NCBI GenBank assembly: GCA_002749535.1
Contig: MZZL01000406.1
Span: 974,295-1,038,294 of the forward strand
DNA from: Apophysomyces variabilis
Lineage: Eukaryota; Mucoromycota; Mucoromycetes; Mucorales; Mucoraceae
Length of the DNA: 64,000 bases
Direction: 5' to 3'
The translations under genes were made by a program, and so were the position numbers. Each line of letters begins with the position of its first letter. Position 1 is the stretch's first letter. Below are positions 7,469-63,390 of this stretch, piece by piece. The notes beneath the pieces are model-generated. The model ran no database searches. It was not told where the DNA came from and worked only from the letters and a program-made list of their open reading frames with translations.

Positions 7469-9641
7469 GGCAGACAAAGTAAAAATAGAAATAAAACCGC
7501 AAACAACTTATATGAGATGAATCAGCATTCAGGATTCTCAAATGTTTCAAAAATAATATATTATTATCATCCTGTTTATGGTTCCATTCATCTTATTCAT
7601 TTTCCTTAAGTTGAGGTTAAAGCAGTCTTTATTTAAGAAGAATGGATTCAAGACAAAGGAGAATTTTACCAATACAGAAAACAGAGAGCTAAAAATAAAG
7701 CATAACCAAGTCCAAAAGGTCCACGGATTTTTATTACTTTCCATGTCGTTTTCCTCTAAATGACATGCGCATTGTTCAGACATATACAAAAATGGTCTGG
7801 ATAACAGTTAAGACAGCTTTCCATATATTTTCGTAACTTCAAACTTTTGTGCTAGTGCCACTTTGGAGATTGCCTAGTTTAAGAGTACCTGTATTTGTGT
7901 CTTTTTCGCCTTCTCTCTTGCCATTTTCTAATAATTTTATACTTTTTTTAAGCACGATCGTGGTCCTTACTATGAATCCTTTCAATGTGTGGTTAATAGA
8001 TCGGCTAAAGGATCCTTCTCACAACCTTAGAGAATCCCTATTTCTAGCTACAAAATACATTTTGAGTAAAGTTCACATACGGGCTATTGCAGCTGCATTT
8101 TTCGTAGAAGTCATTCTTTCTTTTCTCATTGAAAGAGAAGGCTTATATGAAAGGGACAGAGACGGAAACTGTTAGGACTTCTTCTTGACATTTCTTATCG
8201 AACGACAGGAGCGAATAGGAAAAGGCATCAGCAATTAAACGCGCGTTCCGTGGATGTCCCTATAGGTCTAGCTAAAATTATATCACCAGGAAGATAGATT
8301 TGGCGTCTGTTTCAGATTACGTACAAATGGTTTTGTCAAATGCCTCGAGCTTTTGGGGTACGCTCCTACTGTACATACTCTACTTTTCTTTTGAAACATC
8401 AGGCTAGGAAGCATGGGCCTCTAGTCAGGCGATGAATTGATTTTCTTTCTATATGTTACTGTTAGGCAATATTTCTATGCAAGGGAATAAAGTTTACCGA
8501 CAGTAGTACAACAACTGACAATCTCCGTTTCCCAGTTTTGCTCTTGTTCTTGTCTGGTAACAGCAAACAGAACTACAGGGCTCTTTAGCTAAGAGAAAAG
8601 TAAGAATCTATGTTTAGTAGCTGCATTAATATGAGAGTAGAAGAAGGGCTATAAGGACCAGAAACCTCGGCACGAAAAAAAATACCACAAGATAATTTTC
8701 CAATTTTGGATTAAAAATGTTCGGCCAATCATCAATGCTTTATCTATCACGTTGATCGGAAACGGCGATCATTGCCAAGCGGGCAGATCCCAATAAGAAT
8801 CTCAGTCAAAGTTTTTTGGCAACATGCATAAGCCTCTGTTATTACTGGGTAAATCAGCAAATATATATATACAGAGTGCCGGAAACATGTATAATCGTGA
8901 AGATGATTGTGAAATGAATAAAGTTTGTCTTTGTGTACAGTAAGCAAATATAAGATAAAACGAAGGAATACCGGGAAATGAGGGCTCGAGACATGACCAC
9001 GCCTCATCAACTCGATCATTGATTGGAGCTTAACAACAAAGAGCGAGGCGTTTCACAGTCCAATCTTGCCCATCGAATTATCTCACGCGACCTCAGTTGA
9101 TTGAAATCGTGGGCTTTTTTCTTCATATTTAGTATATAAGTATCTGCAGTAATTTTTCCTTTTTTTTTTTTTTTTTTTTNNNNNNNNNNNNNNNNNNNNN
9201 NNNNNNNNNNNNNNNNNNNNNNNNNNNNNNNNNNNNNNNNNNNNNNNNNNNNNNNNNNNNNNNNNNNNNNNNNNNNNNNNNNNNNNNNNNNNNNNNNNNN
9301 NNNNNNNNNNNNNNNNNNNNNNNNNNNNNNNNNNNNNNNNNNNNNNNNNNNNNNNNNNNNNNNNNNNNNNNNNNNNNNNNNNNNNNNNNNNNNNNNNNNN
9401 NNNNNNNNNNNNNNNNNNNNNNNNNNNNNNNNNNNNNNNNNNNNNNNNNNNNNNNNNNNNNNNNNNNNNNNNNNNNNNNNNNNNNNNNNNNNNNNNNNNN
9501 NNNNNNNNNNNNNNNNNNNNNNNNNNNNNNNNNNNNNNNNNNNNNNNNNNNNNNNNNNNNNNNNNNNNNNNNNNNNNNNNNNNNNNTTCCTTTTTTTTTT
9601 TTTTTTTTACTCCCAACAATTTCTCCTTTTCTAGTTGATTG
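7469..9641. other. Intergenic with assembly gap, no gene recognised
   Basis: No family-like coding sequence was found. The last part is the presumed promoter and 5' leader of the phosphate transporter. The sequence CTGCAGTAATTTTTCC before the gap and CCTTTTCTAG just before the start codon could be the ends of a 5'UTR intron with a long poly-T tract. I saw no CACGTG site of the kind bound by Pho4. Confidence 0.45.
9180..9586. other. Assembly gap (407 N) in poly-T tract
   Basis: Both flanks are TTCC followed by a long T-run, so left and right contig ends look like copies of the same low-complexity tract. The true distance may be much shorter than 407 bases. Confidence 0.8.
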
Positions 9642-44500: not shown

Positions 44501-47500
44501 GCTGTGCCACGCTCTGATCAGTTGAAGGGTGAGACAATGCCTGACGTCCAAGACCAAGGGGATCAAAAAATTCAGCTAAGAAGTAATTCCATGGAAAAAT
44601 GTGTCCAGTTCTATGAGATCAGAATCTGTCAAGACAAAGAACGGATCCTTAGCATAAGAACAGTTTTCTTTAATATTGAACTTGCGAACAGACAGCGCAT
44701 TTTGAACGAGTTAAAACAGCTGCTGATATCACCCATTCATCGGATGGAAGGCGACCTGACGGATCTAGAAATTAGGCGTCCTTCTACAACCGTGCATAAT
44801 GCGACTCCGCCGAATTTAATAGTTGCCAAGCGTCCGCTATCCAGTCTGTTAATGCGTGATCCGGAGCACTACATGGCTACGGACGTACAAATCGAGAAGC
44901 AGCAAAATTACATGAGCAAAATGTGGTACATGAACCCTACGTTCTGGTTAACCGGCGAGTTTATCGTGAAGAATTACCTACAGCGATATGTCTGGCATTG
45001 GGAAATACAGGATATGGAAAACGATCCATTTATCCGTAAGCAACTGATATCCCTGCCGAATTTAGCCTTCGAATATCTCTGTAACGCTCGATTAGAGCAA
45101 GTAAGTGTATTAGCGTAGTGCATCCAGAGGTATGATAAATTAACATAAGTTTAAGGGTTATACCTTGGTATCTTCTCAACGAGTAGGAGCACATTTCTAC
45201 AAGGAAATAGACTGCTGCCAATCCGTCTTTGCTGCTCAATATTACGTGTGGAACGATATAGGGAAAAGGAAAATTAGCACTGAATTATGGCTAGAACCCG
45301 TTGTGTGTGAGCCTGCTAACAAAGACCATGACTCTTCGGTATCCGACGTCTTTAATAAGGACAAGCAAATTTTGACCCAACTGATTACCTTTGATTCTAT
45401 GTACGCGATCGGGCAACATTATGAACTTGATTTAAATGAGGATCGTGACCTGTGTGACGCTGTCAACGATGATTTACTTAGTACTCGGCGGATGCATCGA
45501 TCAAGTCTATTCAACGTGTCATCTGTGTTACGCTTGGGGACATTCTTACTAGCTTCCTACTTATGCCCGAAGTACAGTGATCATTATCTTGTTCCGGAAA
45601 ACGTGGACTTGTTTTCTTCCTTTACTGATACACATGCAGCTGTGAAGCCCGTAGAAACTGGCCATGATACCGGATTCAGTCGCAGTACTGAGCGGTTTGG
45701 CGTTCGCTCAAGAACTAATTCACGCTACAGTCCAGTGTCATCCCCGCTTGGAGATACACAGGCAATCTGGCATTCCGATCGCAAGTTAACCTGTACTTGT
45801 CCTTTACCTGACGAATTTTTCTGCCAACATAAAAACGCCATATCGCGACTTCCTGCTATTCATAGAGATATCGCTCTTTTGCACTATTACTTAGAACAGT
45901 CTCTGGCAGCTATTGCTGGCAACGATGTATCGGTTCAAAACATGCCGGTTGATAACTTCTGGAGCAAGCTTCTCACCGCCATCGTGGATCAGAATCTAGA
46001 GACTGCCATATCAAGTACCCTTCCTATTGCCAAAGACTTACAGGATTTGCGTTGTTTTGTCAAAGCATTTGATCCGAACGTATTCGTCGTCATACTTATT
46101 CCCTCTCTTGACTGCGTGGTGGATGGATTAAGCAATCTGGACGATAATAATGTGCCATCTACGTATTGCAAACTGCTTGGGACCGATGCTATACAATTTC
46201 AACACATGAGTTTATTTATGTTCGAATGCCACCGTCAGACTCTGGAGTGCGATAACAATACCAATTCTCATTCTTTGTTGGGTGTTGAAAATGATCGCAT
46301 CCTTGTTAAACCGGTCGATCCGACGTCGTCAAAGGAATGGTTAGATAGTCTAGGCAACACGCTGCGGCCGGACCTTTTCCAAGGCTATTTCAATGATGCA
46401 TTCACTCACGATACTTTATCGGACCGTACCCTCCGTTTAATGCAGGATATTACACGAGTATATTCCAGAAGTTTTGTAAAGTCCGTGTTTACGTGTCTTC
46501 TTCACGGGCGCGCCGTTGAACCGGATGATTTTGATAAGGTCCTCGACATATGTGACGAATCTTACGTTGATATCGACTTGACCGGGTACCTAAACGTACA
46601 GACTTTGTTACGGCGCAGGAACAGAACTAAGTAAGTTCTCTTTTTTTTTTTTTTTTTTTTTAGTGGGGGTTTTACAAACTTTTTTTNNNNNNNNNNNNNN
46701 NNNNNNNNNNNNNNNNNNNNNNNNNNNNNNNNNNNNNNNNNNNNNNNNNNNNNNNNNNNNNNNNNNNNNNNNNNNNNNNNNNNNNNNNNNNNNNNNNNNN
46801 NNNNNNNNNNNNNNNNNNNNNNNNNNNNNNNNNNNNNNNNNNNNNNNNNNNNNNNNNNNNNNNNNNNNNNNNNNNNNNNNNTTTTTTTTTTTTTTTTTTT
46901 TTTTCAGTGAGGGTTTTACCAACCTATTGTAGCTTGGAAGAAATCGAGACAGCGCATCAGCGATTCAGTGCCGTGCTGGGACATTATTTCGAACCTGTCA
47001 TCCTTACCACCGGAAGGCAAAAGAATATATATGCTTATCGCCCACCTTTCGCAAAAGTAGGGCAAAAACTGGGATTTTCCTTGTCAGGAGAAAAGCCAAG
47101 CAATCTAACGGACGTCGTCGTCTGTGCGCAAAATCCATTGTTCGTCCGACTCGAGTGCACATTCCGAAAGCCTAAAGAGTCCGGAGGCTATTCTACAGTT
47201 ACTTTTCCAGTAGAGCGTCTTCTATCCTCTTATGAAGGCTACTACAAGGATGGCACCCCCTATGATTTTGAGCCTGATGTTATTGGATCGTTATATTCTC
47301 CAGTCGATTCTGCCGATGGAATAACAAGTGCTACACTCCGCTTGGTGTGCATGGCTTTACCTCAGACTGACTCTGATCCAGTTGGTGTTCAATCCACACA
47401 TGCAGACGGATGTCTTGGTGATAGAGCATTGAATCCTGAACTGTAAGCCAACCATCTTAGTGTACCGTGCATAGATTACTTACTCAAATTAGATCTTACC

Positions 47501-60315: not shown

Positions 60316-61666
60316 ATGCGATCCTCTATGCGTTTCATTGGCAAGTTCCTCTCTTGATGGAACGAGTTACGAGTAGTGCTAATCCCAAGCAACAGAGATA
60401 GGTGCCAATCTGACTGACCCCATGTTCAGGGGTATCTATCGCGGGAAACACGTTCATGCTGGTAACGATTTTGCAATCAAATGAACAGAAAAGCGCTTAA
60501 TTTCCGAATAATGTAGATGATTTGCAACTTGTCATGCAACGAGCCAAGAATGCAGGCGTTCAAAAGTTAATCATTACCGGTACAAACTTGGAAGAATCGC
60601 GAGAGGCTGCAGCAGAAACCCAAAAAGAGGGGCAAGGTATATCCTTCCGTCCACAAGCCCATGTTTCTTCGCCAGTTGACCGTCACTGCTTTAGATCAAT
60701 TTCTGTATTCGACAGTTGGATGCCATCCCACACGAAGTGACGAATTTGAAGCATATGAATCTGGACCTGCAGGGTATTTTAATGCTCTTTTCGAAGTGGC
60801 CACTACAAGCAAGAACGTAATAGCCATTGGAGAATGTGGTTTAGGTACAACACTCGGATCTGCATTGTACGATATCTTTAAGCTGTCTCAAATGGTTAGA
60901 TTACGATCGCCTACAATTTTGCTCCAAAGAGACGCAGAAGCAATATTTCGAGATGCAGTTTGACTTGGCGCAGAAAACAGGCCTGCCTATGTTTCTGCAT
61001 AATCGGAACACTGGCGATGATTTTTATGATATCCTTTTCCCTTGCTTATAACAACATCGATGCAACGCTACCATAGATTTCTCCTTAACTTCTCTAATAC
61101 AGCTTGTAAAGGCCAACCGGCACAAGTTCTCGCATGGAGTAGTTCATTCATTTACTGGAACGGTAGAGGAAATGCATAAACTCGTCGAATTAGATTTGTA
61201 TATCGGTATCAATGGCTGCTCTTTGAAAACTGAGGAGAACCTCAAGGTAGTCAAGGAGATTCCAGAAGACAAACTTATGATTGAGACTGGCAAGTTTAAT
61301 GGTTTGACAGTTGGAAAGTAGAGCTTATGGAAGTCTCATAGATTCACCATGGTGTGATATCCGCCCAACTCATGCATCGTTCGCTCATCTGTCCAATGTT
61401 TCCAAGGACGAGATGGCTTTGTACGCACCTGCAAGCAAGAAAAAAGAGAAATTCGAAATGGGCTGCACAGTAAAAAGCAGAAATGAGCCTTGTGCTATTG
61501 GGTACGTACGTCCTTTCTGGCCGAAATTACTCACTCGTTTTGTTTTGGTTATAGAATGGTTCTACACGTTGTTGCATCTGTCAAAGGATCTGATCCACAT
61601 GTATTGGCAGAGAAAGTGTGGGCAAACACTTGTAGAGTATTCTTTCCGTCAGCAGCAGATGAATGA
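60316..61666 (+). CDS. TatD-family deoxyribonuclease (TATDN1-like)
   Basis: Eight exons: 60316-60340, 60396-60461, 60517-60636, 60695-60844, 60900-61028, 61101-61289, 61342-61501, 61555-61666. Total 316 residues. Core motifs match eukaryotic TATDN1: [82 protein letters not shown], then [16 protein letters not shown] and SRNEPC. Metal-binding His, Glu and Asp residues expected for the TIM-barrel hydrolase are present, although the first motif is EIGANLTD where many have DIGxNLTD. TatD enzymes are Mg-dependent 3'-5' exonucleases or endonucleases in DNA repair and apoptosis. Three intron classes occur in one gene: GT-AG, GC-AG (two) and AT-AC (one). Its 3' end lies 32 bases from the converging RPT2 gene. 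Confidence 0.93.
60341..60395 (+). other. GC-AG intron 1 of TatD gene
   Basis: TTCATTG|GCAAGTTCCT ... CAACAG|AGATAGG, 55 nt. It joins RFI to [11 protein letters not shown], conserved in the family. Confidence 0.85.
61029..61100 (+). other. U12-type AT-AC intron of TatD gene
   Basis: TTTTATG|ATATCCTTTT ... TCTAATAC|AGCTTG, 72 nt. ATATCCTT is the minor-spliceosome donor consensus. The branch consensus TCCTTAAC is present exactly at 61082-61089, with the branch A 12 bases from the last intron base. Splicing here gives [19 protein letters not shown] in frame with the family. No GT-AG or GC-AG choice does. Confidence 0.92.
61290..61341 (+). other. GC-AG intron of TatD gene before the catalytic Asp-Ser-Pro-Trp
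   Basis: GAGACTG|GCAAGTTTAA ... TCATAG|ATTCACC, 52 nt. It restores [14 protein letters not shown], the conserved metal-binding segment. Confidence 0.88.
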
Positions 61667-61698
61667 TCAAACACACATGACCAAAAAAGATTGCTTTA

Positions 61699-63390
<1,692 letters not shown>

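Follow-up and report, generated by a model that had tools for sequence, protein, structure and literature searches.

Positions 61029-61100 of the window (the whole stretch of 64,000 nucleotides of Apophysomyces variabilis DNA that was analyzed) are almost certainly a genuine U12-type (minor-class) intron with AT-AC ends in the Mucorales orthologue of TATDN1, judging from the splicing signals and from the protein that they interrupt. Minor-class introns are a rare kind, normally unread by the ordinary splicing machine and removed by a second one. A preliminary description had noticed this intron; its coordinates proved exact and the signals, including a branch A 12 nt before the last base, were found as given there. 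By its sequence the TatD intron is real and well supported, and it is of a type already known from other moulds.

The TatD gene and its AT-AC intron

The protein predicted from the joined exons (Table 1) matches the full TatD domain of Pfam (PF01026, 187.8 bits) and, over residues 1-311, human TATDN1 (2xio_A, 324 bits, E 6.4e-96), which was the top of 16 PDB sequences. The description had held that the flanking exons join in frame to TATDN1 sequence, and these matches bear it out. Its placement of the DNA in the Mucoromycota fits as well, the best-scoring named relatives of the protein being Mucorales among the 120 listed of 6920 matches. The gene has seven introns, four GT-AG, two GC-AG and one AT-AC, with six of the seven in phase 1; all but the AT-AC intron were positioned by homology. 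Tail to tail with it, on the - strand at about 61690-63187, lies a gene for a proteasome-type AAA ATPase, with an AAA domain at 62081-62449 (119 bits) and a proteasomal ATPase OB domain at 62561-63187 (51 bits). The window has two runs of N, at 9180-9586 and 46687-46881.

Table 1. Location of the TatD gene, its introns and splicing signals (window positions) and of the minor snRNAs (contig:positions).
Feature	Location	Strand	Remarks
TATDN1/TatD DNase gene	60328-61666	+	8 exons, 312 aa; predicted start codon and splice sites homology-based
TatD gene exons	60328-60340, 60396-60461, 60517-60636, 60695-60844, 60900-61028, 61101-61289, 61342-61501, 61555-61666	+	joined, translated
GC-AG intron, TatD gene	60341-60395	+	GCAAGT...CAACAG, 55 nt, phase 1; predicted
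GT-AG intron, TatD gene	60462-60516	+	55 nt, phase 1; predicted
GT-AG intron, TatD gene	60637-60694	+	58 nt, phase 1; predicted
GT-AG intron, TatD gene	60845-60899	+	55 nt, phase 1; predicted
U12-type AT-AC intron, TatD gene	61029-61100	+	72 nt, phase 1; sequence, in-frame join and gapless human TATDN1 alignment
U12-type 5' splice site ATATCCTT	61029-61036	+	complementary to U11 5' end and U6atac AAGGA
U12-type branch element TCCTTAAC	61082-61089	+	presumed branch A 61088 (or 61087)
3' splice site AC	61099-61100	+	sequence, in-frame join
GC-AG intron, TatD gene	61290-61341	+	GCAAGT...TCATAG, 52 nt, phase 1; predicted
GT-AG intron, TatD gene	61502-61554	+	53 nt, phase 2; predicted
U11 snRNA	C94:2022278-2022412		71.2 bits, Rfam cut-off 39
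U6atac snRNA	C75:833608-833744		63.1 bits, Rfam cut-off 33
U12 snRNA candidate (L001)	C95:3559514-3559713	-	47 bits, below Rfam cut-off 53
U4atac snRNA candidate	C95:2871311-2871433		33.4 bits, below Rfam cut-off 53; E 0.0085

The intron begins ATATCCTTTT and ends TCCTTAACTTCTCTAATAC, its last bases being TAATAC. The start satisfies the U12-type 5' site RTATCCTTT, and the AT...AC termini are within the pair, AT-AC and GT-AG, allowed for U12-type introns. The branch element TCCTTRAC of such introns is located about 8-21 nt from the 3' end; here the second A of TCCTTAAC (61088) stands 12 nt ahead of the final intron base. The exons join as TAT G / AG CTT GTA, which reads FY-E-LVKANRH, and the spliced protein aligns with human TATDN1 without gaps at the junction, while translation of the retained intron runs into a stop after DILFPCL. 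The calculated duplexes of the 5' site were -5.8 kcal/mol with the U11 of this genome and -6.7 kcal/mol with its U6atac. Following established minor-splicing biology, the U11/U12 di-snRNP would base-pair through U11 with ATATCCTT and through U12 with TCCTTAAC, and the exons would join G/AG in phase 1, so restoring the TatD metal-hydrolase core.

The intron had been called a textbook case. This applies to the complete 5' site and branch element, not to the base preceding TCCTTAAC, which is C and not A/G, nor to the branch pairing, which is weak. Extended upstream pairing of the branch site (TTCCTTRAC with U12 GUAAGGAA) is common in U12-type introns, not defining. It is missing in TatD, where the calculated duplex of TCCTTAAC was -8.0 kcal/mol with the own U12 and -8.2 with the consensus U12, that is, about equally weak with both.

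Length at the site departs in six of the 120 relatives and is kept in the other 114. Among the six are two protein models from Apophysomyces. The one from A. ossiformis (P0004) agrees with the protein at 97% of the aligned columns, and its BLASTP identity is 79% over 96% of the query because the model skips a stretch: it begins inside exon 2 and omits the exon preceding the AT-AC intron. It also carries 17 additional residues at the second GC-AG intron, probably that intron retained. This model deviates at each of the three introns that are not GT-AG, two of them GC-AG with GCAAGT. The model from Apophysomyces sp. BC1034 (P0104) is without RNTGDDFY at the site. Our analysis provides sequence support for a minor-class intron where the public models of these two Apophysomyces omit the preceding exon or trim the adjacent segment, and gene prediction in Mucorales has to include models of AT-AC (and GC-AG) introns. 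Two more of the six departures are Phycomyces nitens (P0032), with FYDILFF at the junction, matching the translation of G/ATATCCTTTT, and Geosiphon pyriformis (P0048), with FFNILS, matching the translation of A/ATATCCTTTC (protein models only in both cases). On these two readings the TatD AT-AC intron is probably older than the Mucorales.

Candidate U12-type introns elsewhere in the genome

Taken singly the words are not rare, and they are mildly over-represented in the window: ATATCCTT was found seven times against 2.7 expected (4 of 100 shuffles reach seven) and TCCTTAAC four times against 2.0 (18 of 100 shuffles reach four). What counts is the combination. Eight matches came from a loose scan for the pair on the two strands of the window, and full RTATCCTT plus TCCTTRAC was present in the TatD intron alone. 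ATATCCTT is also found at 60639, at +3 to +10 of the GT-AG intron 60637-60694 and without TCCTTRAC; being inside an ordinary GT-AG intron, where it probably lies by chance, it was not counted as a U12-type site.

We extended the scan to the genome (38,696,054 bases, 126 contigs), with the reversed pattern as control. TATCCTT-N{26,56}-TCCTTRAC gave 41 matches against 9 reversed, and TATCCTT-N{57,87}-TCCTTRAC gave 22 against 6. With both spacings the strict pattern marks 63 distinct places, compared to 15 in the reversed controls. Chance occurrence of the motifs was rejected on this enrichment and on the in-frame joins of conserved proteins described below. The base ahead of TATCCTT in the 63 places was A in 34, G in 15, T in 10 and C in 4, an A/G excess that is independent support because R at this position lies outside the pattern. 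Among the 49 places starting with A/G, 32 (23 A-start and 9 G-start) had AC or AG, respectively, 8-16 nt past the branch element, a condition applied without a control; the 14 of 63 matches starting with C/T were taken as background. A variant overlapping the first pattern, TATCCTTT-N{26,56}-CCTTAAC, gave 28 matches against 9, with T preceding CCTTAAC in 24 of the 28. With an initial pattern that required TTCCTTRAC there were 11 rows for 6 distinct places, three of which fit introns in coding sequence by eye, and 4 control matches. The TatD intron was missed by this last pattern, and it was from this that the preceding base was found to be mostly A/G here.

Twenty spliced peptides were picked by eye from the candidate joins, the join also being chosen by eye where several 3' ends fitted; two of them (L026 and L054), with 19 nt past the branch element, do not belong to the 8-16 set. 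In 11 of the 20 an above-cut-off Pfam match spanned the junction, the families being Dcp2, MIOS WD40, ChAPs, Ion_trans (twice), PP2C, Sec1, Gaa1, VPS11, FancD2 and Glyco_transf_22. Counting TatD, this makes 12 in-frame U12-type introns checked in conserved genes, nine AT-AC and three GT-AG, a ratio that is not a census, since the strict pattern may be biased towards AT-AC introns. The other nine joins had no above-cut-off Pfam match spanning the junction: for five there was no Pfam family (L023, L063, L083, L079 and L044), three had sub-threshold matches alone (RabGAP-TBC, ApoO and QRICH1), and in L054 (C16:51590-51661, - strand) an above-cut-off Ion_trans match ends short of the junction. At L041 (C78:972650-973395, - strand) there are two U12-type intron candidates about 0.6 kb apart, with Ion_trans twice. 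We take the genes at L041 and L054, by eye, to resemble the Cch1 voltage-gated calcium channels; in animals, voltage-gated calcium channel genes hold minor introns. These data indicate that the genome contains dozens of U12-type introns alongside the minor snRNAs.

Minor snRNAs and proteins

A search for minor snRNA genes had been proposed in the preliminary description. It succeeded in full for U6atac, and for U11 too, both above the Rfam cut-offs, and gave candidates below the cut-off for U12 and U4atac (Table 1). At a loose threshold (E <= 1), 14 control genomes gave sub-cut-off matches to U6atac in eight, to U4atac in one and to U11 in one, none of them over the cut-off, and at E <= 0.001 there was no match to U12 in these 14 genomes. 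The U12 candidate carries UGCCUCAAAUGAAUGAGUAAGGA (GAGUAAGGA), an Sm-like site AUUUUUUG and the loop GCCUACUUUGC, with 61 extra bases after the Sm site and ahead of the 3' stem-loop. In an all-family Rfam scan the U4atac candidate came up as U4 at a low score (28.7 bits against a cut-off of 46); one match of the same clan that overlapped it was omitted and unnamed. Paired with the U6atac of the same genome, the U4atac candidate forms a stem I of -9.4 and a 14-pair stem II of -25.6 (calculated). The interaction energy was -20.4 kcal/mol, versus -7.0 with the own major U6, and in 300 mononucleotide shuffles the pairing was -6.7 (sd 2.9), the lowest being -17.1. This complementarity supports the U4atac candidate.

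Regarding the proteins specific to the minor spliceosome, U11/U12-25K is clear (77 bits with the exons joined, cut-off 22.8; PDB 25K, E 3.1e-9). We also found a U11-48K-like CHHC finger (22.9 bits, cut-off 21.1; PDB U11-48K, E 1.3e-4). The zf-U11-48K model was also above its cut-off in one of the 14 control genomes (Sulfolobus), and PDB GTSF1 matched the protein nearly as well as U11-48K did (E 1.4e-4), so its identity as U11-48K is likely rather than certain. PDCD7 (59K) and CENATAC gave no match in this genome, in a search that was uninformative and does not imply absence. With four snRNA candidates, two specific proteins and 12 in-frame introns, the working minor spliceosome that had been proposed for this organism is very likely; from the same sequences we infer expression of the snRNAs and proteins, and splicing itself.

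A possible correlated change of U12 and the branch site

The usual branch consensus, TTCCTTRAC, has T immediately before TCCTTRAC. This T is also present in three AT-AC introns of T. spiralis (PMC2846911). When the Rfam consensus of U12 (GAGUAAGGAAAA) was compared with the U12 of this genome (GAGUAAGGAUAA), we found GGAAAA changed to GGAUAA beside the branch-pairing core, and the changed base faces precisely the one before TCCTTRAC. In the 32 strong candidates this base was A in 18, G in 7, T in 5 and C in 2, a purine in 25 of 32 (binomial p 0.0008 versus 0.493), and in all 49 A/G-start candidates it was A in 26, G in 11, T in 9 and C in 3 (p 0.0002). The 12 confirmed introns had A in 5, G in 4, T in 2 and C in 1. 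The background of C/T-start matches, a small set (n=14), had A in 4, G in 2, T in 7 and C in 1 (Fisher p 0.04 versus the strong set). One base further out, 19 of 32 had T, the base expected from pairing with the U12 A, although the background was also T-rich there (7 of 14). In the calculated duplexes A/G was favoured with the own U12 (-11.3 versus -8.0 for T), and with the consensus U12 it was T that was favoured (-10.7 versus -8.0).

A tentative reading, which we hold to be possible and only a little short of probable, is that of a concerted drift in which U12 went from GGAAAA to GGAUAA and the branch sites from TTCCTTAAC to TCCTTAAC preceded by A or G, restoring a continuous helix, with A-start (AT-AC) introns making up most of the surviving set. 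It is to be read with the facts that TatD itself has C, that the background set is small and that the U12 comes from one genome. Among the literature matches listed, titles and abstract openings held nothing on point about a co-change of snRNA and branch site. If true, the concerted drift would amount to a natural double mutant for testing to what extent pairing between U12 and the branch site limits minor splicing.

Alternative explanations

Some AT-AC introns are removed by the major (U2) spliceosome, and in Phycomyces 31-32 "other AT-AC introns" that are not U12-type by motif have been counted (PMC2846911, Table 2). That the TatD intron is one of these is highly improbable, as ATATCCTT and TCCTTAAC match the U12 signals in full and with the right spacing, in a genome with minor snRNA candidates. 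The minor system might instead be decaying or non-functional, leaving the TatD intron as a relic or rarely spliced. Such a state would suit the sub-cut-off scores of U12 and U4atac and has some precedent in Lichtheimia, where U4atac was reported to be undetectable and the U12 stem atrophied (PMC4133162); the failure to find PDCD7 and CENATAC goes in the same direction, uninformative as that search was. Nevertheless, the complementarity between U4atac and U6atac is intact, and without minor splicing the 12 introns, TatD included, would interrupt conserved genes, so that decay too is very unlikely.

The real protein could also come from a major-class splice, GT-AG or GC-AG, with the AT-AC motifs there by chance. 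We enumerated GT/GC-AG removals with donors at 60905-61059, acceptors no further than 61179, a minimum of 40 nt between the two and the frame open to 61289. There were 21 that left the frame open, all starting with GC and none GT-AG. They lend this explanation some room, as do the annotated proteins of A. ossiformis and Apophysomyces sp. BC1034, which detour around the site. However, every one of the removals deletes or adds residues where 114 of 120 relatives keep the length, in a segment containing the nearly invariant motif FLHxRNT. The major-class alternatives at the TatD site were rejected on this change of residue count, and we regard them as extremely unlikely.

Comparison with known systems

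U12-type introns in Rhizopus oryzae and Phycomyces, both Mucorales, were reported by 2006-2010 (PMC2846911 and work cited there), and U12-type snRNAs are reported for R. oryzae and Phycomyces blakesleeanus (PMC2846911). The statement in the preliminary description that some Mucoromycota keep minor snRNAs is in print (PMC2846911, PMC4133162). The main text of PMC2846911 does not contain "TatD", and the gene here differs. Minor introns number 205 in Rhizophagus irregularis and 249 in Basidiobolus meristosporus, and all four minor snRNAs are reported for Rhizophagus (PMC10639083), a paper whose main text has no Apophysomyces. Among the literature matches listed, Apophysomyces was unmentioned in one set and TATDN1 in another. 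With these findings Mucorales become a fungal group in which the minor spliceosome is tractable.

The protein itself is orthologous to human TATDN1 (PDB 2xio, 8efg), gapless at the intron junction. Among fungi, R. oryzae and P. blakesleeanus share with this genome the order Mucorales, the consensus RTATCCTTT/TCCTTAAC and both the AT-AC and GT-AG subtypes; from ESTs they had 3-4 and 17-20 introns, respectively (PMC2846911), compared to the 63 strict places (15 in controls) found here with different methods. Rhizophagus and Basidiobolus are also early-diverging fungi with many minor introns, but belong to other lineages than this one, and the motifs of Rhizophagus are reported to be close to those of animals and plants (PMC10639083), whereas here A/G mostly stands before TCCTTRAC and U12 has the matching change. 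In Lichtheimia corymbifera four of the five AT-AC splicing RNAs were found, with an unusual U12 and no U4atac, of which one copy is reported in other basal fungi (PMC4133162). Both this mould and ours are Mucorales, and where Lichtheimia was without U4atac, Apophysomyces variabilis has a candidate backed by pairing with its own U6atac.
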